Below are positions 1 to 17,974 of a stretch of 63,551 nucleotides of DNA, piece by piece. Numbering within the stretch: the first letter of the stretch is position 1; every line of letters begins with the position of its first letter. Made by a program: the position numbers and the translations under genes. This stretch comes from a virus. Under the pieces are notes generated by a model. That model worked only from the letters and a program-made list of their open reading frames with translations, searched no databases and was not told where the DNA came from. Location: positions 1 to 63,551 of the IMG/VR virus record IMGVR_UViG_3300017613_001359; one strand, given 5' to 3'.

Positions 1-3000
1 ACTTGAACTTAGTGAACTACTACTCGAAGAGCTAGAACTGCTAAGGCTTGAACTCGAAGAACTCGATGACACACTAGAACTTGAACTGCTTGAACTTGAC
101 GAAATACTACTCGAAGAGCTAGAACTGGATGAACTTAAAGAACTCGATGACGAGGAACTGCTAGAACTTAAAGAACTGGAACTGCTACTCGAAGAGCTAG
201 ACAGACTAGAACTAGATGACGAGGAACTCGATGACTCGCTACTTGATGACGAGGAACTGCTAGAACTCAGTGAACTTGAAGAACTTGAACTGGAACTTGA
301 CTCACTTGAACTAGATGACGAGGAACTCGATGAAATACTGCTCGATGAACTGGAACTGCTAGAACTTAAAGAACTTGATGAGCTAGAACTAGAACTTGAC
401 TCACTTGAACTCGAAGAGCTAGAACTGGATGAAATACTGCTCGATGACGAAGAACTACTTGAACTCAGTGAACTTGAAGAACTTGAACTAGATAGACTCG
501 ACGAAGAACTAGACGAACTCGATGAAACACTACTCGAAGAGCTAGAACTGCTTGAGCTTAATGATGATGAACTAGAACTTGACGAACTTGACTCACTCGA
601 ACTGCTACTACTGCTTGAGCTTGACAAGCTTGACGAGGAACTGGATGAACTCGACGAAATACTACTCGAAGAACTAGAACTTGATGAACTTAAAGAACTA
701 GAACTTGATGAAGATGAACTTGACAGGCTCGATGAAGAACTAGATGAACTTGACGAAGTACTGCTCGAAGAGCTAGAACTGCTTAAGCTTGACGAGCTGC
801 TACTCGACGAAGTACTACTCGATGAACTCGAAGAGCTAAGGCTTGAACTCGATGAACTCGATGATAGGCTACTTGACGAGCTAGAACTGCTAAGGCTCGA
901 ACTCGAAGAACTTGATGAAGTACTGCTCGATGAACTCGAAGAGCTAAGGCTCGAACTCGATGAACTCGATGAAGTACTACTCGAAGAGCTAGAACTGCTA
1001 AGGCTTGATGAGCTGCTAGAACTCGAACTTGAAATACTACTCGATGAACTGGAACTGCTAAGGCTCGATGAACTAGAACTTGATGAAATACTGCTTGAAG
1101 AGCTAGAACTCGAAACACTTGAACTCGATGAACTTGACGAAGTACTGCTTGAAGAGCTAGAACTCGAAACACTTGAACTCGATGAACTTGACGAAGTACT
1201 GCTTGACGAGCTAGAACTGCTAAGGCTTGATGAACTAGAACTTGACGAAGTACTGCTTGAAGAACTAGAACTGCTAAGGCTCGATGAACTAGACGAGGAC
1301 GAACTTGACAAGCTAGACGAAGAACTAGAACTGCTAAGGCTCGAACTCGAAGAACTTGATGAAGTACTGCTCGATGAACTCGAAGAGCTAAGGCTCGAAC
1401 TTGAAGAGCTTGACGAAGTACTGCTTGAAGAACTAGAACTGCTAAGGCTTGAACTTGATGAACTGGAACTAGAACTTGTTGAACTAGAACTAGATGAAGA
1501 ACTCAACGATGAACTAGAACTAGATGAACTCAAGCTAGAACTACTGCTCGAAGAACTTAAACTGGAACTAGAACTACTAACACTCGAACTTGATGATGAT
1601 ACCGAAAATATGCTACTACTAGAGCTTGATGATTTACTTGAACTTGATTCAATAGCAATATCTTCAATTACAATATCAGCACAAGAACTTGATGAACTTG
1701 ATACACTAGAACTTGAACTTGACTCAATAGCAATATCTTCAATTACAATATCAGCACAAGAACTAAGTGAACTTAAAGAACTAAATGAACTACTGGAACT
1801 CGATAGACTGGAACTCGATAGACTGGAACTCGAATCACTTGAGCTTGAAATACTTGAGCTTGAAATACTTGAGCTTGAAATACTTGAGCTTGAAATACTT
1901 GAGCTTGAAGATGAAGTATAATCACAAGTCAACTCGTCAACTGACTGAAGCACTACATTATCAAATGTTCCACTAATACTCGCAAAAGCATCAGTCCAAG
2001 CTTCAAGACGGACATACATAATGTTTGTGCCCATCGTATCAGTAACAAGTGTACTAAATGAGTAAGCAGAAACATGATCTTGATATTTTAAAGATACCGA
2101 TGAACCACTTCTTACAATTGCAAGTTTCCCATCTTGCCATGTTCTTGATACCCATGATTCGGTACCCCAAACCCCACCAACTTTAAAATTACCCACAATC
2201 CAATGACTGTTAAAGGTATCTCTTCCAACTTCTATATATGCTGCTTGTGTTGATGAACCTTGTGCTGAATCTCCAATGTATAATCTCAGACCACTTTCAG
2301 CACCAGTAATTAGACTGCCCCAATCAACTTGTACATTAAAGTCTCCACCTAATGTGGATGTTGATACTATACCAGCAGATTCACTATTTCCAAGAGATAT
2401 ATTTAATTTATTACTTTGTATATCCCAATTGTCAGTACCCGCTGAAACCGCAGTCCATCTTGTTGAGTTTGGAGGATCACCGTTTGTTCCTACAAAATCA
2501 TCATTAAAACAACAACAAGGCCAATAAACATCACCTGCTGATGTAACGACAAAATTATCAGTAGTTCCTCTTCCTGTTCCAGTACTTCCTTGTCCATAAA
2601 AAATTTGAACTTGTACTTCACCGCTTGAACCACTAGTAGCTACTGTTCTACCACTTGTATTGCCGTCCCATTCCCATTGAGCGGCTGAAGCACTCCATGC
2701 AAATACTGAAATAGTTCCACTAGTTCTGGCAATTCTTAATTTACCAGCTGTAACATTTTCAGTATAAGTTTGATTTGCGGCTGTTGTTCCTTCTGAATCA
2801 TAACCATTAACACCAGCCGAATTTAAAATTCTACCAATTGCAGCGATTTCCACATCATCAGTTACTCTTCTAACATTTAATTGTGGACAATGATGAACAC
2901 CCGCGGCTGGTTGTGTGAAAGTGGTTATATCAAAATCAAGTTGAATATCAAAATCACCAGAAAGTTGGAAATAACTTTGTAATCTACTTTCCTCGCCACT

Positions 3001-3333: not shown

Positions 3334-3339
3334 TTTATT

Positions 3340-5724
3340 TTATACCTTATCTACTGTAGGAATGTGTATTGGTGTTCCGAATGCTGTCCAGACTTCTGGT
3401 GTATCTGTTTTTTTGCCCATTGTTATTTTGCCTATAAATGCATCACATCCATTTGCATTATTGTAATCTTCTGTAAAATACCATGTTAAATCACTTCCTC
3501 CAGTCCAAACTTCTGTTAAATGAACTTCTCCATTGTCTGCAGCATTAATATAACTATGAACTTCATTATTATTTGGATGTGCTGTATCCCAACCAACTCT
3601 CAGGTAATACCATATTCCAGTAGTAGTTGCAATATCTCCAAGTATGGTAAAATCAACTGAATTACATCTGTACGTTATATCAATATTACCAGAAGCATCA
3701 AACACTGCTGATATTCTATCACTGCCATCTCCATCTCTAACATCAAATAAATACTCACCACCTGTTACGGCAGTTTGCAAATTAAACCATATTGCTACAA
3801 AACCTTCGTTGTAGTCAATTATATCTTCACTCGAATCAGTTATAGTTAAAACATTTCCTGTTCCATTTGAATCCCAACCATTTGTACCAATTAAAGAAGC
3901 GGTAGTAGTAAACTGTCCACCAGTGTTTGTTGGATTTTTACTTGTAGCTAAATCAGTTCCTCCTTGTGCTAATGCTGATTGACCATCAAAGTACCATGAC
4001 AAATCAACATGTGGTTCATTTATACTATAAAGTAATCCATATCCATTTCCTATGAAATGACCTCCATAGGGTAAAACTGCTACATCAAATGTTTTAACTT
4101 CATCTATAATAATATCTCCAGGATCGGTGGACAGTGTCGACTGAGCACCAACTCTAAAACTGGTTGGTTCGGAAGAACTTGGAGTGCCTGTATTGGCAAT
4201 TGATCCAAGTATCTGTCCAGCTTCAGCAACGATTGCAAAATCTTTATCTGAATCCCAAGCTACGTGAAAAATATGGGTTTCATTGAGTTCATAAGTGCTA
4301 ACATGAACAACAGTATTAATGGAACTGGTAGTACCTCCCCATGCAATAGATAAAGTAAAATAATCATTTGCACTATCATACCAAAGTCTTATATAATTGG
4401 AAGCGTCTATACGAATCTCAAAAATGGTTTGAGAGGATACTACATCATAAGCGAATTGTGGAAGGACAGAAAATAAAATACTTCCTTTCTTAAAATAAGC
4501 ATTATTATGTACTGTTCCTGCACCAACCGCCATTTCAATATATGCAGCACCAGTTTGAGTGTCTAAATTTCTACCTCTTCCAAAGACTGCAACACTATCT
4601 CCGGTAGTATCTGTATCCCTAGCAGAACCATCCGAAGTGTTACTCCAAGTGGCATCATCATTACCTGTTTCATCGGTCAAAGTTGATGAAGCAGCATTAT
4701 TATTATTTTTCAAAAAACATAGTAAATGATCCACGGGAGCAGGCGCATATCCTGTATTATAAGGCCAATCACGAATAAGTATAGCAGGCGAACATCTTTT
4801 TATATCTCCTTCTACTTTTAAAGCTGGTGTAGTATTTGGTTCATAGAAGTGAGCTCCATCAGTATGAAGAGTTGCCGTTGCTGAAACGCCAGGAGGTTTA
4901 ACCATATTACTTATATAACTACCTGAAGTCGGTGAAAGGTCCAATACTGGATCTTTATATTGATCTGCCAATGCTACACGATCAGCTAAACTATACTTCT
5001 TTGCTGATCCTTCTCTATATATAGTATCAATAATAACCATAATTTTAGCTGAATAAATACCCTGAACTAACTCTGCACCAGTTGGGTTGTCTGCTACTTG
5101 GTATCTATGAACACCCGTGCCTGTTCCCTGAGTAGCAAGAGCTTGTTGATGAAAAACACCACCAGCAGATGGATAACTCTGATCCATATAAATAGATTGA
5201 AAGTTTGCGCTTGGAGAAACAGATACTAGGTAAGTTGATGAATCACGAGCGTTGGTACCTGCTTCTAGTGTTTCACTCCCACCATTTTCATAATAAATGC
5301 TATAACCTGCGGCGGTAGGATGCCACATATACATTGTTGCGTTAAGATCAAGACCAGTTAATTCATTATCACCGCTCATTTCCATTCTATAGTCATAAGT
5401 AAACCGATCTGGATAAACAGTCCAAACTTGTTCAGCCCATAGGTTGTTTACTAATAGGGCTTGTGCAGCGCTTCTTAATGTACCGTATGTTCTAATCTTA
5501 ATTCTGTTTGGGGTATTTTCTAAAACTGTTAAAACCTGATTATTATCACGGGATATTCGATAGTTGGTATCGTCAAGCCATTCATCACCTATATCACAAA
5601 CAACCACATCATCCACATAAACTTGGCAAAGATTTGTACCAGCAACACCTTGAAGAAAGTGAAGATAATAACCATCGCAAAAGACATCTATATATGTGTT
5701 TTCATCATCTAATGTTAAATACAT
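3340..5724 (-). CDS. LamG/concanavalin-like fibre or receptor-binding protein
   Basis: 794 residues. The start has GAGGAAA nine bases upstream. The N-terminal 330 residues are beta-rich with no recognised family. Two LamG-like (concanavalin A-like) modules follow at about 332-553 and 575-790. Each has the usual strand pattern of F-E-I-R, Y-I-R-L-W-Y, H-V-A-W-D and an I-I-I-D-E-V-K strand near its end. The second module repeats this order with Y-L-F-D-V-R and Y-L-R-V-G-W-D. Such modules bind glycans in many surface proteins. It lies between two serine-rich proteins in the same operon, so a tail-fibre or virion-decoration role is likely. No signal peptide or membrane segment is visible. The fold assignment is by pattern only. 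Confidence 0.7.
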   Translation of the reverse strand: MYLTLDDENTYIDVFCDGYYLHFLQGVAGTNLCQVYVDDVVVCDIGDEWLDDTNYRISRDNNQVLTVLENTPNRIKIRTYGTLRSAAQALLVNNLWAEQVWTVYPDRFTYDYRMEMSGDNELTGLDLNATMYMWHPTAAGYSIYYENGGSETLEAGTNARDSSTYLVSVSPSANFQSIYMDQSYPSAGGVFHQQALATQGTGTGVHRYQVADNPTGAELVQGIYSAKIMVIIDTIYREGSAKKYSLADRVALADQYKDPVLDLSPTSGSYISNMVKPPGVSATATLHTDGAHFYEPNTTPALKVEGDIKRCSPAILIRDWPYNTGYAPAPVDHLLCFLKNNNNAASSTLTDETGNDDATWSNTSDGSARDTDTTGDSVAVFGRGRNLDTQTGAAYIEMAVGAGTVHNNAYFKKGSILFSVLPQFAYDVVSSQTIFEIRIDASNYIRLWYDSANDYFTLSIAWGGTTSSINTVVHVSTYELNETHIFHVAWDSDKDFAIVAEAGQILGSIANTGTPSSSEPTSFRVGAQSTLSTDPGDIIIDEVKTFDVAVLPYGGHFIGNGYGLLYSINEPHVDLSWYFDGQSALAQGGTDLATSKNPTNTGGQFTTTASLIGTNGWDSNGTGNVLTITDSSEDIIDYNEGFVAIWFNLQTAVTGGEYLFDVRDGDGSDRISAVFDASGNIDITYRCNSVDFTILGDIATTTGIWYYLRVGWDTAHPNNNEVHSYINAADNGEVHLTEVWTGGSDLTWYFTEDYNNANGCDAFIGKITMGKKTDTPEVWTAFGTPIHIPTVDKV

Positions 5725-5735
5725 TTACTTTCCTC

Positions 5736-6614
5736 TTAAACGTGAGTCAATCTTAATTGAATCCAACCTAAACTAGTAAAGCTTACTCCATCGTATAGAA
5801 CCCAACTAGCCGCAGTTAGTCCTGCCTTTGTTGCAGACGTCTTATAATGAATTATTGGAACCGGCCCCGATCCAGTTTGATACTTATCTATTCTTATTAC
5901 TGCTTCTATAGCCCCTAAACACCAAACCTCTGATATTGTTATTCTAGTGGGACCACAATCACTACCTGAAGTTTCAAGCGTTTCTGCGTCCGTGCCAGGA
6001 GAACCACTAGTTATCCAACCACTGCCTGTAGTCCAATTTAGATCAAAATCTTCATCAAAATCTTCACTAACAGCCGTATGATGACCCCAAACTACAGTTC
6101 CAGAAGCACATGAACTTGAACTGGATGAAGTACTTGAACTAGAACTTATAGAACTGGATGAACTAGAACTAGATTCACTCGAACTAGAACTAGATACACT
6201 TGAACTGGAACTTGAACTGGAACTAGATACACTTGAACTGGAACTTGAACTGGAACTAGATAGACTAGAACTGGAACTAGAGCTGGAACTAGATAGGCTA
6301 GAACTGGATGAACTTAACGAACTAGAACTGGATGAACTCGAACTACTAGTACTTGTTGAACTAGAACTCGATGATCCTGCCTCATCAAATCCTGTTTCTC
6401 TTGCAACCCAACCTGTATCGCCTGTGTTCTCGCTATAACAGTCAAAACCAGTAGTAGTGATACTAGACGCACCGGTCCCTTTTGCGGGGTTGCCAGTACT
6501 GTAAGTAGTAACAAATACAACGGGAGTACTATCAAAAGTATCATTAAACGTTACTGCCTCTTGTACTTTTGATACCTGCTGATCGTGTATACCACTATCA
6601 TATTGTTTGGCCAT
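5736..6614 (-). CDS. H-type-lectin-like domain with serine-rich linker and C-terminal beta domain
   Basis: 292 residues in three parts. Residues 1-78 resemble an H-type lectin module (pattern V-x-F-N-D-T-F-x-x-T-P-V-V-F-V, then T-T-G-F). About 90 residues of nearly uninterrupted serine follow (roughly 80-170). The last 120 residues form a domain with two Cys and many Trp, beginning CASGTVVWG. Its FNDTF motif also occurs twice in the gene at 7250-7750, so these are related modules. The polyserine resembles that of the giant gene at 1-3333. GGAGG lies upstream of the ATG. Likely a fibre or decoration protein; carbohydrate binding is inferred. Confidence 0.7.
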   Translation of the reverse strand: MAKQYDSGIHDQQVSKVQEAVTFNDTFDSTPVVFVTTYSTGNPAKGTGASSITTTGFDCYSENTGDTGWVARETGFDEAGSSSSSSTSTSSSSSSSSSSLSSSSSSLSSSSSSSSSSLSSSSSSSSSSVSSSSSSSSSSVSSSSSSESSSSSSSSISSSSSTSSSSSSCASGTVVWGHHTAVSEDFDEDFDLNWTTGSGWITSGSPGTDAETLETSGSDCGPTRITISEVWCLGAIEAVIRIDKYQTGSGPVPIIHYKTSATKAGLTAASWVLYDGVSFTSLGWIQLRLTHV

Positions 6615-6621
6615 GAGTTAT

Positions 6622-7248
6622 TTATCCTCCCATACAACGATTACAACTACCTGTTCTATTTCCATCTTTATCAAATTCATATCCACAACTAGCTATCTGT
6701 GTAAGCTCTTTTTCAAACGTTGGATAATTTTTACATCTATTAGGTTTTCCCTCTGGATGATAGCTACAACCGTCTTTCCCTAAATTTATACATGGTAGTC
6801 CATCTTCTGGTTTTGTTAAATCAAATCCCCATAGAGGATCATCTGGAATACCAAGATCCACATCACCACTAACTGAACAACCGAAGAATCTAAGACCTTC
6901 TCCATGAACTATATGTAATGTGGCAATTTTTTCAAGAGCTAAATGAAATATAAGTCTGCAACATTGATCGCTCATATTTTTATTGTTTTCTGTGAAATTA
7001 ATTAAGTCCTCATCCGGATAAATTATTGAAAGTAATTCAATCTTCGCTTGTTTCTGTGCTGCTTTTGTCTCCATTCCATCCTTAAAGACTAACTCATTCC
7101 ATCTAAGTTTATAAAGATAGAATACTTCTTCATTATGATAATATACTCTGTTTACCATGAAAGCATGTGAGGATTCTCTACATCCCTTTGGCCAATTTTG
7201 TAATTCATCAGCAGATACTTCTGCTGGCGTTCTTGTATAATCTGTCAT
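6622..7248 (-). CDS. YkgJ-like cysteine-cluster protein (putative Zn/Fe chelating)
   Basis: I place the start at 7248 because GGGAGG lies six bases upstream and the gene then begins just after the stop of its neighbour. The ATG at 7269 would overlap that neighbour. The product is 208 residues. The C-terminal third has the pattern PC-x-N-L-x-x-x-G-C-S-Y-H-P-x-x-x-P-N-RC-K-N-YP, then C and C-x-x-C, like the YkgJ/CxxCxxCC zinc- or iron-chelating family. An earlier CC pair lies mid-protein. Its role among lectin-like genes is unknown: it could be a metal-dependent modifying enzyme or a structural metal site. Confidence 0.6.
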   Translation of the reverse strand: MTDYTRTPAEVSADELQNWPKGCRESSHAFMVNRVYYHNEEVFYLYKLRWNELVFKDGMETKAAQKQAKIELLSIIYPDEDLINFTENNKNMSDQCCRLIFHLALEKIATLHIVHGEGLRFFGCSVSGDVDLGIPDDPLWGFDLTKPEDGLPCINLGKDGCSYHPEGKPNRCKNYPTFEKELTQIASCGYEFDKDGNRTGSCNRCMGG

Positions 7249-7249
7249 A

Positions 7250-7750
7250 TTAAACCTCCCAAAACCCATTAGTATATATTGCCCACCATGCTACATTATC
7301 AACAGTTCCTTTAACTTCTCCAGCAACATCACACCCAGTTGTTGTAATATTTGCCGCTGATGTTTTGCCACCTTTCCATTCATCATCATTCCCGTTATAC
7401 CCTGTCATAACCTCTGGTGTACTACTAAAAGTATCATTAAATGATATAGATTCTAAAACTTTTTGTGTTCCTACGGAATGAATATCACTATCCATCTCAG
7501 GATTTGTCGATGCACTACCCGCATCATATCCAGGTTCTTTAGCAAAGTATCTAATACTTGTGTCTTCTGAAAAAACATCAGCTTGTGTTGTGCTTACAGC
7601 AACATCAGAGTCAACTCCTGACTTTTCTTTGTCTCCAACACCAAAAACTAATAAATCTACTGGCGCATTATCAAAAGTATCATTGAAACTTTCAGTATTT
7701 GATTGTTCTGCCGTTATTGTCCAAACGTCTGCATCTGTTTGTATTGCCAT
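7250..7750 (-). CDS. Two-module H-type-lectin-like fibre protein
   Basis: 166 residues made of two copies of one module, about 1-80 and 88-166. Each copy has F-N-D-T-F-x-x-x-P followed about 25 residues later by a Thr-rich strand and an aromatic strand (Y-F-A-K-E-P, W-W-A-I-Y). The same motif opens the 5736-6614 protein. H-type lectin modules are small six-stranded sugar-binding domains, and the spacing fits. GGAGAG precedes the ATG at 7750. A virion glycan-binding tip is likely, but could equally be a small structural beta protein. Confidence 0.6.
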   Translation of the reverse strand: MAIQTDADVWTITAEQSNTESFNDTFDNAPVDLLVFGVGDKEKSGVDSDVAVSTTQADVFSEDTSIRYFAKEPGYDAGSASTNPEMDSDIHSVGTQKVLESISFNDTFSSTPEVMTGYNGNDDEWKGGKTSAANITTTGCDVAGEVKGTVDNVAWWAIYTNGFWEV

Positions 7751-7765
7751 TTTATTTTTCTCTCC

Positions 7766-8647
7766 TTAAATTTTACGTCTATACTTTCCACGTGGTAAAT
7801 ATGTTTTATCAACATATTCCCATGGTATTTTACTTTTTCCATATTTCATGCCATATGCCCACTCACCATGGATATGTCTAAATCCTATAGTCTTATACCA
7901 AGTTCCATAGCCTGGTTTATGTGACTGAGTATTAAATGGATTTTCTGGAGCTTTGACTAGCTTCAAATCTAAGTCCTTGATTGCTTTAGCAAATCTCGCT
8001 TCCGTATTTCCAAATTCCTCTGCATACTTTTCATAGTTATCAAAAGGAATTAAGTGGTCTTGAAAGTGCTTCATCATTGCTTGAGCCGCTGTTGTCTTAG
8101 CCAGAAAAGCTGTTGTGTTGAAGAGTTCTCTACCTTGAGCAGTTTTCTCCCAACCACAACCTATAATATCACCATCACCAAGCATGTCAATTATCTGTTC
8201 AAAATTTTCTGGTTTCTCTAAAATACAATCACCATTTGTACAATAAACGTACTCAAATCCACCCATCGTGTGCATTCCAAATTTCAAAACCCAGAAGTAT
8301 GGATAGAGTACTCCTCCCCACGTTTGATGATGTGGTATGATGAATGTATCCACTTGATCGAATACTTCTCTTGTTGGCATAAGATTATCATATTTCGATT
8401 CTTTATTTTTTGGGTCCCAGTAGTTATCGTACGCTAAAGTAATCCAGTAACCCAACTTCTTATGCGTTTCAATAGAAGCACTTAAAAATGGTCTCGTACT
8501 TGGATGACCTGTCATTAATATTCCAATGGGCTTAAGTGCTCTCATAGCCCATTCATCATTAGCCATATAATCTTTTAAAATTTGTGCTAAATGATTCTTT
8601 TCATTGCCTGGTTTTAAACTTTTCACATATTCTCTTGTTATTGTCAT
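7766..8647 (-). CDS. Glycosyltransferase-like protein (paralogue of the next gene upstream)
   Basis: The start is set at 8647 because AGGAG sits seven bases upstream. The longer frame to 8698 would overlap the upstream stop at 8652. It encodes 293 residues. A central stretch, YVYCTNGDCILEKPENF, looks like a GT-A type D-x-D/nucleotide-sugar site and aligns with VNSDCVWEKPKNI in the 8652-9692 gene. Both proteins also share an early hydrophobic beta strand and a late R-H/R-N-I-x-G-E-W/L motif (FRHIHGEW versus YRNIGGEL). A sugar-transfer role is inferred from this and from the surrounding glycan genes. The precise family is not recognised. Confidence 0.5.
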   Translation of the reverse strand: MTITREYVKSLKPGNEKNHLAQILKDYMANDEWAMRALKPIGILMTGHPSTRPFLSASIETHKKLGYWITLAYDNYWDPKNKESKYDNLMPTREVFDQVDTFIIPHHQTWGGVLYPYFWVLKFGMHTMGGFEYVYCTNGDCILEKPENFEQIIDMLGDGDIIGCGWEKTAQGRELFNTTAFLAKTTAAQAMMKHFQDHLIPFDNYEKYAEEFGNTEARFAKAIKDLDLKLVKAPENPFNTQSHKPGYGTWYKTIGFRHIHGEWAYGMKYGKSKIPWEYVDKTYLPRGKYRRKI

Positions 8648-8651
8648 CACA

Positions 8652-9692
8652 TCACTCCTTATTAATAAACTTTTTCCACTTCTCTTTATATTCATCATCT
8701 TTCAAAATAAACGATTGATAATCACGCCTATTAAAATGTCCCATTCGTTCACTTGGCGGACCAAGTTTCTTTCTAAGCGAATCATCATGTAATGGTTTTT
8801 CACCATAGTACTCTATTGGATAATATCTTCTATTCCAAAATGAATCTTCTCCTTCTGCCCAAAATTTATATAACCATCTTCTATCATTTGTTTTAAAATA
8901 TTCTAATAAAACAAGTTCATGTGTTGTGTAATAACTTACATCACTTACATCAAAATATTTTTTATCAGGTGGCTCTAAATGTTCTAGTGAACTATGTCTT
9001 AACTCACCACCAATATTTCTATATCCTAAAACTCTTTTCCAAGTACTATCTTGATTGGTAGTACTATAATGATCTACCTGTCCCTTATATTTATGTCCCT
9101 CTGGAAATATTGGTTGAATTATAGGTAGCTTGTTTTTTATATTGTTTTGTTTAACAAAATCCCTTAAAACAGATTCCGGACTATAAGACTCTTTTCTATT
9201 TTCCTTTAACTTTAAACAAATATAGTCGACAAATCTCTGAAATACATGTGATTTATACATAACAGCACATGTATGTAACATTGATCCACCACCAGTTACC
9301 GGTGTAATATCACAATCATTGTCAAGAAATTTAACCATCTCGTCTATATTTTTTGGTTTTTCCCATACACAGTCACTATTTACAGTGAACACAACCTCGA
9401 TATTACTAAATGACTTCAATATTGATCCAGCATATACAATATCCCAAAGCCATCCATTTCTTTTTGGTTGTCCAAATGTTTTATGTTTGAATGCCCAAGA
9501 GTGTGGTATTTTCATAATATATGGCTTTGGTTCATTTGATCTAATGTCATAACTACAAATCACATAGGCTCCAGTTTTCATATAACTTTCTAAAGCATTC
9601 TTTAGAAACATTCTATGACCATCCCAACTTGTTACAATTATTGCTATTTTTGATCTCAATGGAAAATCATTAAGATTATAATCATCTACCAT
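8652..9692 (-). CDS. Glycosyltransferase-like protein
   Basis: 346 residues, with GTTAGGAGG seven bases before ATG 9692. The N-terminus has a beta strand (KIAIIVTSWDGHR) typical of nucleotide-sugar-binding folds. A probable D-x-D-like site is VNSDCVWEKP. A late RNIGGEL motif is shared with the neighbour at 7766-8647. The C-terminal 100 residues are rich in Trp, Tyr and Arg and are absent from the paralogue. I infer a GT-A-like enzyme acting with the sulfotransferases and methyltransferases upstream. A non-catalytic glycan-binding paralogue is possible. Confidence 0.5.
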   Translation of the reverse strand: MVDDYNLNDFPLRSKIAIIVTSWDGHRMFLKNALESYMKTGAYVICSYDIRSNEPKPYIMKIPHSWAFKHKTFGQPKRNGWLWDIVYAGSILKSFSNIEVVFTVNSDCVWEKPKNIDEMVKFLDNDCDITPVTGGGSMLHTCAVMYKSHVFQRFVDYICLKLKENRKESYSPESVLRDFVKQNNIKNKLPIIQPIFPEGHKYKGQVDHYSTTNQDSTWKRVLGYRNIGGELRHSSLEHLEPPDKKYFDVSDVSYYTTHELVLLEYFKTNDRRWLYKFWAEGEDSFWNRRYYPIEYYGEKPLHDDSLRKKLGPPSERMGHFNRRDYQSFILKDDEYKEKWKKFINKE

Positions 9693-9719
9693 ACTTACCT
9701 CCTAACATATTTACACCTT

Positions 9720-10781
9720 TTAGTATTCCTTTAAAATAATTACAGGTATTTTATCAAATTTTAAGCAATTTGATATACCAACTCTATGGTTACCATCATC
9801 AACTAATAATAATCCATTCTTCTTTTCTCTTATAACTGGTGGTTGTTCTATTCCAATTTCTTTTATTGATTTAAATAATTTTGGTTTATGATTTTCTAAA
9901 AATTCCATTTCAGTATTTGAATTATATATATTATTCTTCAAAAAATTTCTATATGTTAATGTTTTAGGAGATACATAAGTAATAAAATTACTTAAATCTT
10001 TTCTCTTTGTTTTATCCAATCGGTTCCATAATCTTAAATTTTTACAACCTGCAATCACTGTTATAATTTCATTCCATCCCCTCGTTTTATAATCATCAAA
10101 TACCATATGATGATTATTAGCTAATCTTAAATTACCAGTTTTTTGATACCTTACTAAAGTACGATTACATAGTTCTTTTCTCCCATTTTCATGGAAACCA
10201 AATTTTTGTAACTGCTCATAAAATATATCACCATTTCTACAGTTATTCTCATTTCTCCATCTTGCTATAATATTCCATGTTTTATCTGTTAATAATTTAG
10301 CTCTTACATAGAAATAATCTTTTAAAAATTCTTCATCCATTGTTGATCTAAATGTTCTTGGATATAAAACTGATGAAGCAATAATTGCATGGTATCTTGT
10401 GGTATGAGGCTCATTTGTTAAAAAATCCTCATACTTATCACAAATTAATTTAATGTTATGATCCTTCTTATTTTTTAAAAAATATGATTTAACTAAATTA
10501 GCTTGTTTTATAGAATTTGGATTTATATCTATACCTCTACAATTATTTGCACCATCAAGTATTAATCTTGTAATGAAGTACCCCGCACTACATCCTATAT
10601 CCAAAAATCTTGTTAATTCTAAATTTTCAAAAAGAAATGATCTAATATCTTGATAAACTTGTTCTGCTGTTCCTGTGGTTGAATCATTAGTAATAATTCC
10701 ATTACCGAAATCTATACATTGATACCAGGGATTTAAATCATTTACTTGTTGTTCTAATATTTTATTACTTTTTGCTACCAT
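9720..10781 (-). CDS. Class I SAM methyltransferase fused to ParB-like domain
   Basis: 353 residues. Residues 58-70 (FLDIGCSAGYF) are a SAM-binding glycine motif, with an acidic strand (RGIDINP) after it and a third motif near 135, as in class I methyltransferases. The last 45 residues, with PPVIREKKNG, VDDGNHRVG and IPVIIL, match a ParB/sulfiredoxin-like fold, whose signature is DG-x-HR. Its start overlaps the stop of the upstream sulfotransferase. The pairing is odd: ParB-like folds can be nucleotide-binding or kinase-like, so it may act on a nucleotide sugar or on DNA. The target is unknown. Confidence 0.6.
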   Translation of the reverse strand: MVAKSNKILEQQVNDLNPWYQCIDFGNGIITNDSTTGTAEQVYQDIRSFLFENLELTRFLDIGCSAGYFITRLILDGANNCRGIDINPNSIKQANLVKSYFLKNKKDHNIKLICDKYEDFLTNEPHTTRYHAIIASSVLYPRTFRSTMDEEFLKDYFYVRAKLLTDKTWNIIARWRNENNCRNGDIFYEQLQKFGFHENGRKELCNRTLVRYQKTGNLRLANNHHMVFDDYKTRGWNEIITVIAGCKNLRLWNRLDKTKRKDLSNFITYVSPKTLTYRNFLKNNIYNSNTEMEFLENHKPKLFKSIKEIGIEQPPVIREKKNGLLLVDDGNHRVGISNCLKFDKIPVIILKEY

Positions 10782-11440
10782 TCATACCCCATATAATCTA
10801 TTTCTTTTTTATGAACTTTTGTTATTCTATTTTTACAATCTTCATCTAAAACTTCTCTATAATGACTATGATTTATTCTAGTCCATGCTTTATATCTATA
10901 TTCTGGTAATTTAAAATCCTTTGGAAGACCACAATTTTTTATTAAATATTCAGTCATTTCATTTAAATTTTCATATTTAAAAATTTTATCAACTATTACT
11001 TTTGATTGTGTTTCCTCATCTGTATAAAATCTCCAACTAGAATGTCTCGGAAAAGTTGAATGCATTATAAATTCTTTTGCTGTCATACCTAAATACTGGC
11101 TCCCAGGTCTTAAACTATAATAATATTCAGATATAGCTTTATCCCAAGGATTTCTTTCCACACAAAATTTAAAATAAGTATCCCATATACTTTTATCCAT
11201 ATGTGCTATCATTTCTTTCACTCTAAAAGCAGGAATATGATTATAAAAAACTGCTTTAGTACTTGGAATATAACACCAATTATTTTTTTCATGTTTAGAA
11301 TTATCTATATCCTTATCATCAAATTTAGTAATTATATCATAAGGACCAGAAGCACATGACAATGCATATTGAATACTTGTACTAGCAGACTTTCTACATC
11401 TTATAAATATCAATTTATATTTGTGTGATATTACACACAT
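10775..11440 (-). CDS. Sulfotransferase family protein
   Basis: 221 residues. The N-terminal strand-loop LIFIRCRKSASTSIQYAL (residues 9-26) matches the PAPS 5'-phosphate binding loop of sulfotransferases (I-x-x-x-K-x-A-S-T-S). VERNPWDKAISEYYY, near residue 104, matches the 3'-phosphate motif (R-N-P-x-D-x-x-x-S-x-Y). These enzymes move sulfate from PAPS to a carbohydrate or other hydroxyl. It shares its boundary base with a second sulfotransferase-like gene and overlaps the methyltransferase-ParB gene, so all three are probably translated together. The acceptor is not visible in sequence; a co-encoded glycan is the natural candidate. Confidence 0.75.
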   Translation of the reverse strand: MCVISHKYKLIFIRCRKSASTSIQYALSCASGPYDIITKFDDKDIDNSKHEKNNWCYIPSTKAVFYNHIPAFRVKEMIAHMDKSIWDTYFKFCVERNPWDKAISEYYYSLRPGSQYLGMTAKEFIMHSTFPRHSSWRFYTDEETQSKVIVDKIFKYENLNEMTEYLIKNCGLPKDFKLPEYRYKAWTRINHSHYREVLDEDCKNRITKVHKKEIDYMGYEW

Positions 11441-12063
11441 TATCTTATCACCAGAGGGTTTGGTCTTCCGATATATTTTTGGATTTCTTTCCTACCTATT
11501 GATTTGAATCCATGATCGAGTAATGATTGATGTCTTCCGATATCCGAGTCTTTTATTATAGATTCATATGGAACCCCATCTGGCCACTTAAGCCCAGTAT
11601 ATAGTTCAATCCCTTTAACAACAGGCTCAGGGTCTTTCATCAAAGTTGATGTGTTTAAAATATAGAAATTTTCAATATCTGCCATATATTTTGCTATATG
11701 AAGTTCAGCTTTAATTAATGTATCCCAGGCTTCTTCTACAGTTGAACACCTATGATAATAATTTGAAAGACAAGTAGCCATCCATTCTCTTTTTAATAAT
11801 ATTGTATATGTTTTATATCCTTCCTTATCAAAACAATTAGATATTAAAATAGGATCAACCCATTGTCTTCCATTAGGAACGCTTCTTCTTAAAACAATAT
11901 TTTCATTATCTGTAATATCTTTTAAAGAACATTCACCTCTTATAAACACATCTATGTTTAACTTTTGAGGTTCTTTCCAAAAACATCCCATTGTTTGTAA
12001 TACTAATGATGTTAAATGATTGCCCGAACTTTCTGGTCCCATTACCAAAAATAATTTACCCAT
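11440..12063 (-). CDS. P-loop sulfotransferase-like protein
   Basis: 207 residues. It begins with a beta strand and P-loop (LFLVMGPESSGNH, residues 4-16). A later KREWMATCLSNYYHR resembles the 3'-phosphate-binding R-x-x-x-x-x-S segment of sulfotransferases. A strand giving Y-I-L-N-T-S and a helix for E-L-Y-T-G-L close the fold in the way the family does. It overlaps the GT9-like gene upstream by eight bases and abuts the second sulfotransferase downstream. A nucleotide or sugar kinase is the alternative reading of the P-loop. Confidence 0.6.
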   Translation of the reverse strand: MGKLFLVMGPESSGNHLTSLVLQTMGCFWKEPQKLNIDVFIRGECSLKDITDNENIVLRRSVPNGRQWVDPILISNCFDKEGYKTYTILLKREWMATCLSNYYHRCSTVEEAWDTLIKAELHIAKYMADIENFYILNTSTLMKDPEPVVKGIELYTGLKWPDGVPYESIIKDSDIGRHQSLLDHGFKSIGRKEIQKYIGRPNPLVIR

Positions 12064-12736
12064 TTAAATACCTCTCAATTAACTCTTTTGTTAACTTATA
12101 ATGACCATTCTCACCTTTTGGATATTGTTTTGATCTGCCAAGATATAAGTCAGCGCATCTCGGAACCTTCATTCCCTCTGCTAATGATAGACCAGTAGAC
12201 TGATTACAGAGGTAGAGTTTTGAACCTTTTATGATTCTAGCAAAGTCCAATGCATCTTTAATTTCAACTTTCTGGATATTAAAATTTCTATCTCTACAAA
12301 AGTTTTTATATTCATGGGGATGTCCAATATATACCGCTCGATCTTCAAAACCTCTCAGTTGTTCCCAATCAATTGTGACCCCTTCCCATCTTAATTTACC
12401 AGTATCATTGATAACTATATCAGCAACATGTTTTGGCTTTATATTAAAAAGCCAAGGTTTTGTGAAATCAAATTTTAAATTAAATGCCATGGCGTGACAT
12501 TCTAATAGAGTAAACCGATTATAATCTTGCTGCCTAAATAAATCCAGATCATAGTCAACTTTCTCTTTAATACCATAGCTGACTTCATCTATATAAGGCT
12601 GTTTATCCAGTAGTGACTTATAGAACTTTTTTGTATGATCTAAGTTTAAAAATATCTTACCACCACCTAAATTATACATGGTAGCAAGACCATACAACAT
12701 ATCTCCACCACCACCAGAATGCTTAAAAGTTTTCAT
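12056..12736 (-). CDS. GT9/GT-B-like glycosyltransferase
   Basis: 226 residues. It opens with a glycine-rich loop (HSGGGGDMLYGLA, residues 6-18), as seen at the N-terminus of ADP-heptose/GT9 transferases. Near the C-terminus it has ARIIKGSKLYLCNQSTGLSL followed by AEGMKVPR. That matches the GT9 donor-site region (strand, S/T-G, then helix with A-x-x-x-x-x-P). It is shorter than usual GT9 enzymes (about 320-350), so it may be a reduced form. A putative late-promoter octamer and a hairpin lie upstream. Confidence 0.6.
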   Translation of the reverse strand: MKTFKHSGGGGDMLYGLATMYNLGGGKIFLNLDHTKKFYKSLLDKQPYIDEVSYGIKEKVDYDLDLFRQQDYNRFTLLECHAMAFNLKFDFTKPWLFNIKPKHVADIVINDTGKLRWEGVTIDWEQLRGFEDRAVYIGHPHEYKNFCRDRNFNIQKVEIKDALDFARIIKGSKLYLCNQSTGLSLAEGMKVPRCADLYLGRSKQYPKGENGHYKLTKELIERYLNG

Positions 12737-12763
12737 TTCCTATCCTCCCTCCAAACGCAAACA

Positions 12764-12790
12764 ACGGATTGTGTATTTTTCACAATCCGT
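12764..12790. other. Perfect 10-bp inverted repeat in an intercistronic gap
   Basis: ACGGATTGTG and CACAATCCGT flank a 7-base loop (12774-12780). No T-run follows on the minus strand, so it is not a standard terminator. It may be an mRNA-stabilising stem between the 51-residue gene and the GT9-like gene, or an operator. Confidence 0.5.
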
Positions 12791-12815
12791 CGTAACAAAT
12801 TAAATTCATTGAATG

Positions 12816-12823
12816 TATTTATC
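12816..12823 (-). promoter_or_regulatory. Variant late-promoter octamer GATAAATA
   Basis: On the minus strand GATAAATA lies 80 bases before ATG 12736 and overlaps the stop of the 51-residue gene. It differs by one base from the T4 late core TATAAATA. The same variant precedes 17943, 33682 and 45170. Chance occurrence is possible in AT-rich DNA. Confidence 0.35.
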
Positions 12824-12974
12824 CTTCATCTTTCAATTTTGTTTCATCACTTTGCTCATTAATTAATTTTCCTAAAGTGTTTGCCAGTTGTGCTACCTGA
12901 CCATAAGGCAAAGAGTTAACAATTTTTAAAATCTCGGCCATTACACTTTCTGGAATTTTATATACTTTCTCCAT
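12819..12974 (-). CDS. Small conserved-looking protein, 51 residues
   Basis: The ATG at 12974 overlaps the aminotransferase stop (TAATG), and AAGGAGG lies upstream within the end of that gene. The stop is at 12819. The product begins MEKVYKIPESVMAEILKIVN and is mostly helical, with a polar, charged C-terminus. No family is recognised. Translational coupling and a strong ribosome site argue that it is real. Confidence 0.6.
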   Translation of the reverse strand: MEKVYKIPESVMAEILKIVNSLPYGQVAQLANTLGKLINEQSDETKLKDEG

Positions 12975-14089
12975 TACCATCCTCCTTTGATAGTATCTAC
13001 TATGTATTCTCTATCTTCTTTTGTTACCCACCATCCAACTGGTATGCAAATCATTTTATCAATAACTGATTCCAATCCTGGTAAGTTTTTTCTATACTCT
13101 TTTGTAAATGTATGTTTATCATTTCTTTCATGTACTCTTGAAACTGATATTCCTCTTGTGCCCATCATGTGAGCAAAAGAAGTTCTATCCTCTACCAATA
13201 ATGTATAAATCCAATAAGATGAAAGCCTATCCTGCTTAGTTTGAATAACTTCAACACCTGACTCACCAGTCAATTCTTGATTATAATATCTAGCGTTACC
13301 TCTCGCAGCCATAACATTTTCTACCGCTGCATCAAAATTAGCTAATCCTACTGTGGCACATACGTCATTCATATGATACTTATATCCCCACTCTGAAATA
13401 TCTTCTTCACATCTCATATCCTTTCTGGGACTCTCTCTATCAATTCCATACCATCTTAATAACTTAGCTCGCTCATAATCCTTAATATGTTTTAAGAAAA
13501 GTGCTCCTCCATCTACTGTAGTCAAGTGTTTAATTGCTTGAAAACTCATCATTGAATAATCAGAGTAAGCACAACTACCTATTACGCTTCCTTTATAAAT
13601 TGAACCGAAAGCATGAGCACCATCCTCTATAACTTTTATATTAGCTTTTTGTGCTATTTCATAAATTTCTTTCATATCACATGGGTAGCCACCCCAATGT
13701 ACTACCATTATTGCTTTTGTGTTACCGTTGATACTTGACTTAATACTTCTGTAGTCAATATTCAAATCATTTGGCTTGATGTCGGCCCAGACAATCTTCG
13801 CACCTTGCATGAGTATTGGAACATTCGTTGCGGTGCATGTTAGTGGGGTTGTTATGACTTCATCACCCGGACCGACACCAGCCAATCTTAAAGCAAGACT
13901 CAATCCATGAGTACCTGCAGATAAAGATAGCACTTTTTCATTTTCAAATTCATCACCTAATTTCTTTTCAAACTCTTCTACTTTAGGACCTTGTCCTATC
14001 CACCCAGAATATAGTACTGAGTTGACTAGTGGTCCTACTTCATTATTCATGTACACTTTAAATAGTGGTATATTCTCTCTACATTCCAT
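12974..14089 (-). CDS. DegT/DnrJ/EryC1-type PLP sugar aminotransferase
   Basis: 371 residues, the usual length. It shows family motifs in order: SAGTHGLSLALR (57-68), ITTPLTCTATNVPILMQGA (79-97), VIEDGAHAFGS (153-163) with D156, and MMSFQAIKHLTTVDGGAL. In the last of these K187 is the expected PLP Schiff-base lysine. These enzymes make amino sugars from keto sugars, using glutamate as donor. It sits between a CmcI-type methyltransferase and small/GT9 genes and overlaps both neighbours by one base. It probably supplies an aminated nucleotide sugar for the phage glycan. The identity of the sugar is not visible. Confidence 0.9.
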   Translation of the reverse strand: MECRENIPLFKVYMNNEVGPLVNSVLYSGWIGQGPKVEEFEKKLGDEFENEKVLSLSAGTHGLSLALRLAGVGPGDEVITTPLTCTATNVPILMQGAKIVWADIKPNDLNIDYRSIKSSINGNTKAIMVVHWGGYPCDMKEIYEIAQKANIKVIEDGAHAFGSIYKGSVIGSCAYSDYSMMSFQAIKHLTTVDGGALFLKHIKDYERAKLLRWYGIDRESPRKDMRCEEDISEWGYKYHMNDVCATVGLANFDAAVENVMAARGNARYYNQELTGESGVEVIQTKQDRLSSYWIYTLLVEDRTSFAHMMGTRGISVSRVHERNDKHTFTKEYRKNLPGLESVIDKMICIPVGWWVTKEDREYIVDTIKGGW

Positions 14090-14721
14090 TAGTTTATCCT
14101 CTTCAAGTAACCTTTCGGATTGAAAGTCATTATATATTTTTCACACCAGTATTGTGGTTCAAAATAATCTCTTGTTGATAAAAACCACTCAACTGCTTCA
14201 TATGGCCCCTTACCATGTTCCCAATGTACAGGATGACCACTTACATGAGTATCTTCAACTATAAGATATGATCCAACCGGCACGAGCTCTTCATACATTT
14301 CAAGTTCTTTACATACATGGTCATAAGAATGCCATGAGTCAAGTATAACTAAATTCTTCATATCATTACATTTGCTTTTTATTCTATTAAACTTAAGTGG
14401 ATTTATACTGCTACCATGATGTGTTATTATTCGCTTTCGTATTTTTGATGGTAAATGACTTAGTTCTCTAACTTTATTTTCAATATCAATTGTAATTACT
14501 TTACCATGTCCAATTAACTCACAAATACTCGCATAGAAAGCAGCCGACCCACCATGACCAGTACCTGTTTCAATTATACAATCTGGCTTAACTTCATATA
14601 TAATTTCTTGAATTACCATAGCATCAAATGGCAATTTCCACATAGGAACACCTAACCAATATGTGTTTTCCCACATTCTTTTCTGTTCATAAAACTGATG
14701 ATATTCATCTACACATCTCAT
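14089..14721 (-). CDS. CmcI-type / rhamnosyl O-methyltransferase family protein
   Basis: 210 residues. Motifs CIIETGTGHGGSAAFYA (about 49-65), VITIDIE, and LVILDSWHSYDHVCKEL with VGSYLIVEDTHV match the CmcI/cephalosporin hydroxylase and rhamnosyl O-methyltransferase family. Its members are SAM-dependent and several methylate sugars. The ILDSWHSYDHV segment carries the usual metal or acceptor-side residues. Its stop overlaps the start of the aminotransferase. O-methylation of a sugar on the phage glycan is the best guess. Confidence 0.8.
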   Translation of the reverse strand: MRCVDEYHQFYEQKRMWENTYWLGVPMWKLPFDAMVIQEIIYEVKPDCIIETGTGHGGSAAFYASICELIGHGKVITIDIENKVRELSHLPSKIRKRIITHHGSSINPLKFNRIKSKCNDMKNLVILDSWHSYDHVCKELEMYEELVPVGSYLIVEDTHVSGHPVHWEHGKGPYEAVEWFLSTRDYFEPQYWCEKYIMTFNPKGYLKRIN

Positions 14722-14723
14722 AA

Positions 14724-15284
14724 TTATCTCCTAAACATTATAGTCATTGACGGAAATTCCTTATAAGTATAATAAACATAATTCTCATTAATCAACTTAT
14801 TAGTTCTAAGTTCCTCAACTATTGACTCTTTATCATACATATCCATCCACTCAACGTTATCTCGCTCGTATGATCCACCCTCAAACGCAATCATTCCATT
14901 AACCTTTGGGTGCCATAGCTCCATAATTTCTCTAATCACTTTTCCATCATTACTAATATCAACATGTAAGAAATCAATTTGTCTATCAGCCCACTCATCA
15001 TGTACATCAAAGGCATCACCTTTCATCAGAGTGACATAAGAACTCACACCATGTTCTCTAAGCATTTCATATACTTGTTCCATGTCTCCATGTTTATAGT
15101 CATAGTCGTCCCATAGATCATATCCCCACAGACGACCATAATCATTCATCTGTATTCCTTTTAGCATATGAAGAGTACTGTATCCATCAAGTATTCCCAA
15201 CTCTACTACAGTTTCAGGCTTATAAGTTCTTACTAATCTATAAAATATTTCACCGAAGTCATTTTGTTTATATGATGTTCTCAC
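14724..15284 (-). CDS. Class I SAM methyltransferase (Methyltransf_24-like)
   Basis: 186 residues. The SAM site is VVELGILDGYSTLHML (residues 28-43), followed by an acidic strand (GYDLWDDYD) and FLHVDISNDGKVIREIMELW, the motif order of this family. It overlaps the end of the tri-domain glycosyltransferase gene by 17 bases and lies two bases before the CmcI-type gene, so the three are probably co-translated. The substrate is unknown; sugar or small-molecule O-methylation is likely from context. Confidence 0.75.
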   Translation of the reverse strand: MRTSYKQNDFGEIFYRLVRTYKPETVVELGILDGYSTLHMLKGIQMNDYGRLWGYDLWDDYDYKHGDMEQVYEMLREHGVSSYVTLMKGDAFDVHDEWADRQIDFLHVDISNDGKVIREIMELWHPKVNGMIAFEGGSYERDNVEWMDMYDKESIVEELRTNKLINENYVYYTYKEFPSMTIMFRR

Positions 15285-17943
15285 CTAAAATCTCCTCTAC
15301 CCATTTTTCTGCGACGTATTCCTTTTTAGCGTATTCTCTTGCGGCCTCACCCTTGATCTTTAAAATTTCTGGGTTTTCTATAATTTCCTTGATTACTTTC
15401 AAGTAGTCATCCCATGACTCACAGAGCCACCCAGTTTCTGGAGTTACTCTATCTTTAGCACCATATCTGTTATCAGCAATTACTGGCATCCCACAGGCCA
15501 TGGCTTCAATTATAACTCGTGGTCCTTGATCCTGATAACCTTCTGGTAAATGATACCAAAAGCAGTTTCCTTTTGATAAGAACTCATATACTGGTGGTTT
15601 ATTTTTAGGATATTTATATACTTGTGGATGATCCATCATATCACTCTTCGCTGGCATATAGTGAAACTCAATCGCCGAATCAATGCCCATAATTTCTCGA
15701 ATATGAGCATTTGTATCTGGATGATGTTTAGCATCACCTTGTGAATTATGTCTTATAAGTTTTAACGGATAATTATAATCTACTTTTTGTTTTAAGAACT
15801 CAGTCAAGTCAGTGGGTGGTGGAAGCACTTTTGTATAAGCATCTGGAATCCTATCTAATAATTCTTGTTCCTTAGTACTGTTTAAGAACATATACTTATC
15901 CCATCCAATAGTCCAAGGCACATTGCCGGCTCCACCAAGCTGATAATTAAGTATCATTACTTTCCTATCTGTTCTAAGCTCTTCCATAATATCCCATTGT
16001 GGTTTATTATAATTCCAAATTGTATCACTGCAGTAGAGTACAGTTATATCTGACGGCATAGCAAGTTCTTCCCACTTGACTGTATTAACTCCCTCAGGAA
16101 TATTCTTTAAGTACTCACCCGAAATGTTTCCGGTTGGTACCAAGTCAACTCTATATCCTTTATCCTGTAACATGCCCATTATTTTAACTGTTGATCGTTC
16201 GCTACCGCCCCATCCTCTGGTTGTTGTGACCATACGGGCAAGTGGTTTACTTGTGTCAACTGAAACTTCAGTCTTTCTTTTCCAATAATGACAACGATGT
16301 CCACCCTTAGCCGCTAAGTTAAATTCTGGTTCAAGATATTTTGCCTGCCACATCCTTTCTTCTTTTCTTCCAGCATCATGGACTACTACTAAGTCAGCAT
16401 GCTTCGAAGCATACTCAGTTGACCATTCTCTATTTGGACCTCCCGCCGGGCCGTCAACAAAAGCGAAGTCATATTTTTCTTTCAATGGCTCAGATACAAT
16501 TCTACCATTCCAGTGTTTTATGACTGAATTTTCTGGTGCCATATCACCAATCTTCTTAATCCATCCTGGCTGAGTTTCATAAGTTTCAACACTTTTTACA
16601 GTGCTTGCAAATAGTAAAGTAGAAAGACCAGCACCGAACTCAAGTATTGTCTCAACCTTTTCCTTCTCAAAAATTTCTTTTAAGAAAATCCAATCCTTAT
16701 CAGTTATGCTTCCACCACCCCATTGGAATCCATGTGTCTCCAATAACTTATTATCTACTGGAGTAGTTGTAGGCACTACAAAAACTTTCTTTTCTTTAAC
16801 AACATTCTTAAAAAATGTGTTTCTTATCTTCTTACCATATTGTAATCTACCACCATCATAGTACTTCTTGATACCATTTGTCACATCAGATGGATGAATT
16901 ATATCAACACACTTAGGCACACCATCTTTGTGATTACTACATCCACCAGGCTTAAGTGAAGTTTTCCAACAAGCCTTATGTGTCGCACATTCTGGTATCG
17001 CGCCGTTGGTCTGAATGTATTGATGGCCCATATAGTTAGTGAAGTGAGCCGGCTCTCTAGCACCAGCAACAACTACACATGGATTATTAAAAGCAGCACT
17101 TAAGTGCATGTGCATCGAAACCAATCCAACAGAACCCTGAGCATGTAAAAAGATATTGAATAAATCTCTGATTCCTGTATCTCTATGCTCTGTTTTACCA
17201 ATATAATCATTTACATTTTTCAAGTGAGCATATGGATGTCTTTGCATACCTAACTGGACAAATTGAACTTCTGGCATTGAGTCAACTACTTCCTGCCATC
17301 TTTCCTCTGGCCACATTTTAGCTGTCCACCCAGGCTCTCCACCAATAATTATAACCCAGTATGGTCCTTCAATAAGTGGTTTTCTGTGGTACTCTTCTTC
17401 TGTTAACCATATATCCGGCCTCGTGTCACCCTGAGTTATTTGAACACCAAGCTTTTGCTCCATGCTTAATCTAAAAGCATTACACATGTGGTAGTTCCAA
17501 GTATTTGATTTATTTGTCAAATACCCCGGACCGATTTCCACTATTGACTCTGACTCTCTAAATTGATGATCTATATATGGATTATTATCCCATATATGCG
17601 AGGCAGTGGAAATTACTCCAACTTTGGTATTAGGAAACGTGTTCTTAAAATCTCTAACACCCGCAGTAAAGGTTAGTATATCTCCTATTGCTTGTCTGTT
17701 TTTGAATACTACTTGACTTGGTGGTTGCTTTGACTTATCGGTAGGAGTCATGTCAACATTAACATGACTTATCAAGTCTTGGGCAAGTTCTGTTGCTTGT
17801 TGCTTATCTGGTAACACATGATGGATATGACCATCTCTAAATTTTATAGACATAGAAAAATCGGTAGCGTCTGTTCTCCTACCGATATTATCGTCTTTCG
17901 CGAGCGCATCCGCTTCGCGTTTTAACATCTTCTTAATATTCAT
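15268..17943 (-). CDS. GT9 - methyltransferase - GT4 fusion glycan enzyme
   Basis: I place the start at ATG 17943, with GGGGGA seven bases upstream. A GTG at 17958 is in the same frame. The product is 891 residues in three domains. Residues about 75-375 are GT9/heptosyltransferase-like (QAIGDILTFTAGVRDF, then WVIIIGGEPGWTAKMWP, then LVSMHMHLSAAFNNPCVV). Residues about 405-565 are a class I methyltransferase (ILEFGAGLSTLLFAS, FAFVDGPAGGP). Residues about 580-885 are a GT-B family 4 enzyme (TRGWGGSERS at the acceptor side, PRVIIEAMACGMPVIADNRYG at the donor side, with the E-x-x-A-x-G-x-P signature). Joining two glycosyltransferases with a methyltransferase suggests ordered assembly and capping of one glycan. 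Confidence 0.85.
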   Translation of the reverse strand: MNIKKMLKREADALAKDDNIGRRTDATDFSMSIKFRDGHIHHVLPDKQQATELAQDLISHVNVDMTPTDKSKQPPSQVVFKNRQAIGDILTFTAGVRDFKNTFPNTKVGVISTASHIWDNNPYIDHQFRESESIVEIGPGYLTNKSNTWNYHMCNAFRLSMEQKLGVQITQGDTRPDIWLTEEEYHRKPLIEGPYWVIIIGGEPGWTAKMWPEERWQEVVDSMPEVQFVQLGMQRHPYAHLKNVNDYIGKTEHRDTGIRDLFNIFLHAQGSVGLVSMHMHLSAAFNNPCVVVAGAREPAHFTNYMGHQYIQTNGAIPECATHKACWKTSLKPGGCSNHKDGVPKCVDIIHPSDVTNGIKKYYDGGRLQYGKKIRNTFFKNVVKEKKVFVVPTTTPVDNKLLETHGFQWGGGSITDKDWIFLKEIFEKEKVETILEFGAGLSTLLFASTVKSVETYETQPGWIKKIGDMAPENSVIKHWNGRIVSEPLKEKYDFAFVDGPAGGPNREWSTEYASKHADLVVVHDAGRKEERMWQAKYLEPEFNLAAKGGHRCHYWKRKTEVSVDTSKPLARMVTTTRGWGGSERSTVKIMGMLQDKGYRVDLVPTGNISGEYLKNIPEGVNTVKWEELAMPSDITVLYCSDTIWNYNKPQWDIMEELRTDRKVMILNYQLGGAGNVPWTIGWDKYMFLNSTKEQELLDRIPDAYTKVLPPPTDLTEFLKQKVDYNYPLKLIRHNSQGDAKHHPDTNAHIREIMGIDSAIEFHYMPAKSDMMDHPQVYKYPKNKPPVYEFLSKGNCFWYHLPEGYQDQGPRVIIEAMACGMPVIADNRYGAKDRVTPETGWLCESWDDYLKVIKEIIENPEILKIKGEAAREYAKKEYVAEKWVEEILGENII

Positions 17944-17974
17944 ACAATTTTCCCCCACTAAATTTTCTTATATA

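Follow-up and report, generated by a model that had tools for sequence, protein, structure and literature searches.

The presence of polyserine proteins and a large set of glycan enzymes in a single gene block raises the question of which molecule these enzymes decorate. The stretch of DNA that we analysed, hereafter the window, is a 63,551-bp IMG/VR record and a fragment of a T4-like myovirus, with matches to the portal, major head protein, large terminase and tail sheath. A first-pass annotation had proposed that the phage O-glycosylates its own serine-rich fibres and caps the glycan with methyl and sulfate groups, with modification of host surface glycans as the alternative.

A leftward block of polyserine proteins and glycan enzymes

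Reading of the open reading frames placed all 18 genes from position 20101 to position 1 on the minus strand, where they overlap or nearly abut, the sole larger gap being one of 237 nt (12737-12973). The ELEL ORF on the plus strand (2-1921) is the antisense of the first polyserine tract. Two polyserine proteins, H-lectin-like proteins and a large beta-rich protein occupy the downstream end of the block, the glycan enzymes form its middle, upstream of the polyserine genes, and a holin-like protein, a response-regulator/PAS protein and a HAD-like protein are encoded at its upstream end. A promoter scan gave matches at chance level. The features discussed here are the following:

1-3333, minus strand: polyserine protein 1, 610 Ser in 1,110 aa, 3' end outside the contig
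3340-5724, minus strand: large beta-rich protein, possibly with LamG/concanavalin-like regions; weak phrog_25394 match, without Pfam match
5736-6614, minus strand: polyserine protein 2, 98 Ser in 292 aa
6622-7269, minus strand: small Cys-rich protein without family match
7250-7750, minus strand: H-type-lectin domain protein, putative fibre component; PF09458, 26.9 bits (cut-off 24)
7766-8698, minus strand: GT_a, glycosyltransferase-like, GT-A-like fold; AlphaFold mean pLDDT 71.8 (moderate confidence), without family match
8652-9692, minus strand: GT_b, paralogue of GT_a; 22-25% cross-identity between GT_a and GT_b of a relative, without Pfam match
9720-10781, minus strand: methyltransferase (Methyltransf_9/31) with C-terminal ParB-like domain; Methyltransf_9 26.3 bits (cut-off 23.8), weak ParB_N
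10775-11440, minus strand: sulfotransferase ST_a, Sulfotransfer_2; PF03567, 32.4 bits (cut-off 22), phrog_3347
11440-12063, minus strand: probable sulfotransferase ST_b, from the motifs GPESSGNHLT and R-x7-S; without family match
12056-12736, minus strand: GT_c, putative glycosyltransferase-like protein without family match
12974-14089, minus strand: nucleotide-sugar aminotransferase DegT/DnrJ/EryC1; PF01041, E 3.3e-80
14089-14721, minus strand: sugar O-methyltransferase, RMNT/CmcI type; PF04989, E 8e-56
14724-15284, minus strand: methyltransferase, Methyltransf_24; PF13578, E 1.2e-14
15268-17958, minus strand: three-part enzyme of 896 aa with a GT9 domain carrying a four-Cys insertion, a methyltransferase-like middle and a GT1/GT4 C-terminus (Pfam)

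Both long-polyserine proteins of the first-pass annotation were thus found, and chance is excluded for this observation, since a polyserine ORF occurred in 0/55 random viral loci. The N-terminal part of polyserine protein 1 consists of two similar beta-rich domains, and its C-terminal tract of serine runs interrupted by single L/T/I/V/E residues. Polyserine protein 2 combines an H-type-lectin-like N-terminus (H_lectin E 1.3e-3, below cut-off), a polyserine middle and a C-terminal domain that is 53% identical to the polyserine protein of relatives L201-L205. The lectin-like domains and the position of the genes suggest that the polyserine proteins are located in the virion, and the protein encoded between them (3340-5724) is a putative fibre or adhesin component. 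Cys-rich proteins are found at the position equivalent to 6622-7269 in L002 (20593-21030) and L023 (10534-10851), where they adjoin polyserine or glycan genes; some Cys-cluster families include the flagellin lysine methylase FliB, which is only a lead for the window protein. The fibre locus of L023, a close relative, also encodes a 2,219-aa protein (3878-10537, plus strand) with several polyserine tracts and BNR-type repeat regions.

The set of glycan enzymes in the first-pass annotation was likewise recovered. Its five glycosyltransferase-like domains are recognized through Pfam (GT9 and GT1/GT4), predicted fold (GT_a), homology (GT_b), and appearance and conservation in the cluster (GT_c). 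The GT_a model matched GT-A enzymes in Foldseek with E values of about 1e-6 to 1e-5 and TMq 0.3-0.46, and GT_c is kept in L002, L200 and L035 at 45-69% identity. Three of the four methyltransferase domains have a Pfam match and the fourth, in the middle of 15268-17958, has weak profile matches only. Pfam confirms the sugar aminotransferase as DegT, its closest NCBIfam model being PseC, below cut-off. As for the two sulfotransferases, ST_a is assigned by Pfam and ST_b by motifs, of which the P-loop-like GPES.G and R-x7-S are kept in three relatives; phmmer searches of both against the PDB returned no match.

None of the ten block enzymes contains a transmembrane segment (highest 19-residue hydropathy, 1.18) and all of them look soluble from their sequences. 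This bears on the possibility that surface glycans of the host (LPS, capsule) are the target, altered so as to exclude rival phages, and that the enzymes share an accessory region with fibre genes, both being fast-evolving cargo. In its favour, phages are well known to carry seroconversion cargo, surface polysaccharides often bear methyl and sulfate caps, and L002 retains the cluster without nearby polyserine. The usual hallmarks are nevertheless missing from the block, which encodes neither the flippase nor the polytopic or membrane-anchored transferase of Gtr-type phage O-antigen conversion, and polyserine and glycosyltransferases are linked both ways in unrelated phages (see below), so that we consider host-surface remodelling unlikely. 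It is highly improbable that the set hypermodifies phage DNA with sugar and methyl groups, polyserine being unrelated. Phage DNA glycosylation is known and one methyltransferase carries a ParB-like domain, but the sulfotransferases, the CmcI-type sugar O-methyltransferase and the DegT aminotransferase indicate glycans, and the adjacency to polyserine recurs across phages.

The response-regulator and PAS protein (18430-19362, minus strand) and the small holin-like membrane protein (17987-18433, minus strand) head the block in the window, and the same pair heads it in L001, L002 and L003; in L096, a PAS protein (4106-5358, minus strand) lies beside a similar small protein, upstream of the polyserine gene. 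The pair is possibly a phage-encoded sensor module. Elsewhere in the window, a second protein (23570-24043, plus strand) appears ParB-like by eye.

Linkage of polyserine and glycosyltransferases in other phages

An alternating serine-codon pattern was searched for in 2.9 million viral contigs, of which 50 with real polyserine ORFs were retained; controls were 50 contigs matched by an arbitrary 16-mer (random) and 50 matched by a polyglycine pattern. GT9 (PF01075) was present in 9/50 polyserine-selected contigs (2.52 Mb in total), compared with 0/50 random contigs (1.28 Mb) and 2/50 polyglycine contigs (about 2.5 Mb, length-matched), with Fisher p values of 0.0026 against the random set, 0.05 against the polyglycine set and 0.0009 against both pooled. 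Taken alone, the test against the length-matched polyglycine set is only borderline; the low count in contigs of equal total length also argues against host-surface remodelling. GT1/GT4 (PF00534) was detected in 7/50 polyserine-selected and 0/50 random contigs. The 41/50 polyserine contigs with no GT9 match are explained in part by their being fragments. In the nine positive contigs, 10 of the 14 GT9 matches lay at most 10 kb from polyserine, a rate 12.8-fold that found elsewhere in them (p 7e-6); separations include 0.9 kb (119-kb contig), 0.3 kb (106-kb contig) and 4 kb (548-kb contig).

In a reverse test, 19 contigs were fetched by homology to GT_a and the 896-aa enzyme, regardless of serine. 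Long polyserine proteins were encoded in 10/19 of them against 1/50 random contigs (p 2.6e-6), and two further contigs had short serine tracts. Each positive contig was confirmed by ORF reading, pattern counts alone not being accepted, and G117 was not counted, as the part of it that we read lacked polyserine. Moreover, an independent collection (genome_contigs, 84,980 genomes) yielded only two full-length homologues of the 896-aa enzyme, one on a contig assigned to a Lokiarchaeota MAG and the other on a contig of an uncultured-bacterium MAG, and each has polyserine ORFs as neighbours. The contig of the Lokiarchaeota bin (L231, DAOUVJ010000001.1) encodes a tail sheath homologue together with the three-part enzyme and polyserine; this homologue gives it the look of phage DNA within the bin, or else the contig is a clue to the host. 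Searches of 50,697 phage records with the 896-aa enzyme, GT_a and ST_a returned no relative, and no cultured phage record contained the 896-aa enzyme. A literature search for polyserine in phages returned nothing relevant and no paper describing the system.

Comparison of relatives separates constant from variable parts. L035, picked by polyserine alone, has the same cluster at 35-45% identity and additionally encodes a nucleotide-sugar dehydratase/epimerase (564-1547), as would suit a pathway to an amino-deoxy sugar donor. The acceptor candidates can be very large, with 1,006 serines in a 1,368-aa protein (L198), 1,253 in a 2,234-aa protein (L201) and two polyserine proteins of 1,232 and 1,180 Ser on either side of the enzyme in L211. 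The pairing is not obligatory: in L002 (120-kb contig, 83% identical enzyme), the 76 kb that were read contain the cluster next to other beta-rich proteins but no polyserine protein, and none appeared in the parts read of L207-L209, which are close relatives. Polyserine also acts as a mobile module on different structural-type proteins, since in L001 and L007 it is fused to a homologue of the window protein at 30638-32026, which itself has none. Finally, the sulfotransferases, ST_a among them, and the ParB-methyltransferase (9720-10781) are missing from some relatives that retain the core, so the decoration is variable; the proposed methyl and sulfate caps are plausible for this phage, as a lineage-variable trait and not a constant feature.

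 L010 (IMGVR_UViG_3300033145_003233, 548 kb) is a very large phage contig with three polyserine proteins near GT9/GT1 enzymes. L019 and near-identical 63,847-bp contigs (L034, L036, L114, L123) represent one genome, which encodes several small proteins, among them one of 97 residues, whose C-terminal tails are almost entirely polyserine.

Secreted cellular enzymes of Saccharophagus and Teredinibacter also have long serine tracts that join their folded domains; these are shorter than the phage tracts and, to our knowledge, have no linked glycosyltransferases. Polyserine could be a flexible unglycosylated linker in the phage as well, the glycan genes modifying another virion protein; such linkers have been described in the literature and the phage tracts too connect folded domains. 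This reading is quite improbable given the specific linkage of polyserine and GT9 genes and tracts of up to 1,253 Ser (L201), far beyond the length a linker needs.

The GT9 domain and a proposed pathway

The GT9 part of the 896-aa enzyme was modeled with a pLDDT of 81.5 and resembles solved GT9 structures, the best being TibC (4rap/4rb4; Foldseek E about 1e-10, TMq 0.63-0.71), above WaaC (TMq 0.51-0.58). TibC moves heptose to serine, not threonine, and requires a four-Cys iron finger (PMC4358343). In an alignment of the three-part enzyme from 14 phages with 43-83% identity to the window, C324, C330, C340 and C350 of the GT9 part are invariant. G14-D15 and K136, invariant in alignment A2, fit the GT9 pattern; the comparison with Asp-110 and Lys-230 of TibC is by pattern only. 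The window spacing is C-x5-C-x9-C-x9-C, that of the iron finger C-x2-C-x15-C-x11-C, and the enzyme scores 16.8 bits with the NCBIfam TibC/Aah model TIGR04414 (cut-off 200). Because of this spacing and score, we do not call the domain a member of the bacterial autotransporter heptosyltransferases (BAHT; TibC/Aah), but it probably works like one.

Like TibC/Aah, the window enzyme has a predicted GT9 GT-B fold (TMq up to 0.71) and a four-Cys element, of different spacing, in the C-terminal part, looks soluble and is encoded beside a putative serine-bearing substrate; unlike them, its GT9 domain is fused to methyltransferase-like and GT4 domains and embedded in a larger glycan pathway. The TibC/Aah substrate is a beta-helix autotransporter, whereas the partner candidates here are polyserine proteins; no autotransporter domain was found in the acceptor candidates scanned near the enzyme. 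Gram-positive serine-rich repeat glycoproteins are similar in that a serine-rich substrate is encoded beside cytosolic O-glycosyltransferases and further decorating enzymes. They differ in using GtfA/GtfB, while the window, which is phage DNA with nearly pure serine runs and single-residue breaks, has GT9, with GT1/GT4 only within the fusion; no accessory Sec-like gene (SecA2/SecY2) was found in the 18-gene block. As cited in PMC11256854, phage glycosyltransferases of mycobacteriophages (Che8 and others; Freeman 2023) are proposed to coat the phages' own virion proteins; the glycans there are on capsid proteins, while in the window the linkage is to polyserine fibre-like proteins and methyl and sulfate enzymes are added.

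Because unrelated phages repeat the same pairing, they probably sugar-coat their own serine-rich stalks, and we consider the block to be probably a self-contained virion-glycoprotein module that O-glycosylates the polyserine proteins of the phage itself, in the cytosol and ahead of assembly. The earlier proposal of self-glycosylation is thus strengthened by the two-way linkage in diverse phages and the TibC-like GT9 fold, but an obligatory pairing does not hold (L002, L207-L209). In the pathway that we infer, from substrate and donor sugar to order of steps, virion location and stalk role, soluble phage enzymes would make an unusual amino-deoxy sugar through the aminotransferase, plus the dehydratase in a relative. 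Sugars would be attached in the cytosol to serines of the polyserine proteins before assembly, the first of these transfers being made most plausibly by the GT9 part of the 896-aa enzyme, in the manner of the autotransporter heptosyltransferase TibC. Extension of the chain would fall to GT_a, GT_b, GT_c and the GT4 domain, and the glycan would be methylated and, in some lineages, sulfated. The product would be a hydrated, protease-resistant stalk or spacer bearing lectin-like binding domains; that it is stiff and antigenically distinct, as the first-pass annotation held, is speculation.

Even serine runs and their significance

All 65 internal runs of polyserine protein 1 are even. Counting distinct codon-class strings, even and odd runs number 35:0 in the window, 40:1 in L023, 77:6 in L198 and 52:4 in L201 (p 6e-11 for the window, 1e-11 to 8e-17 for L201 and L198). 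Nearly all break residues are L, V, I, E, T, F, Y, Q, K or R; P, G, D and N hardly ever occur there. TCN and AGY serine codons, which are not interchangeable by one substitution, are mixed in the window's clade, which points to selection on the protein level.

Three accounts were rejected. Hexanucleotide (TCN-AGY) slippage is excluded as the source of parity, since in L198 mixing of the codon classes is fully random (386 adjacent serine codons alternate, 477 are of the same class) and yet the distinct runs are 77 even to 6 odd. Parity is not a general polyserine property, as L035, L037, L084, L012 and L030 have no significant even bias. No clear two-face rule emerged for the break residues: in the window T keeps to a single parity (10:0), unlike E, L and V. 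The L010 polyserine proteins have odd-leaning runs, with Leu on one parity (1:12) in one of the three.

A two-residue structural register and pairwise enzyme recognition are both candidates for the even-run rule, which poses a sharp structural question. A bolder and less likely reading is a widespread, so far uncultivated phage class with dedicated polyserine glycoproteins, in which the window clade follows a grammar of (Ser-Ser)n plus one L/V/I/E/T/F/Y/Q/K/R because either the glycosylation machinery or a beta structure with two sides reads its two-residue register; this would be a new repeat-protein class, a sugar-coated rod. Polyserine beside GT9 offers a sequence marker for finding more such systems. 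If self-glycosylation is true, many environmental phages would produce mucin-like stalks of up to about three-quarters serine and coat them through a pathway that the phages themselves encode. Phage virion glycosylation would then reach beyond capsid proteins to fibre-like ones, and its soluble serine O-glycosyltransferases could be put to use in E. coli, where a simple polyserine stretch would serve as acceptor.
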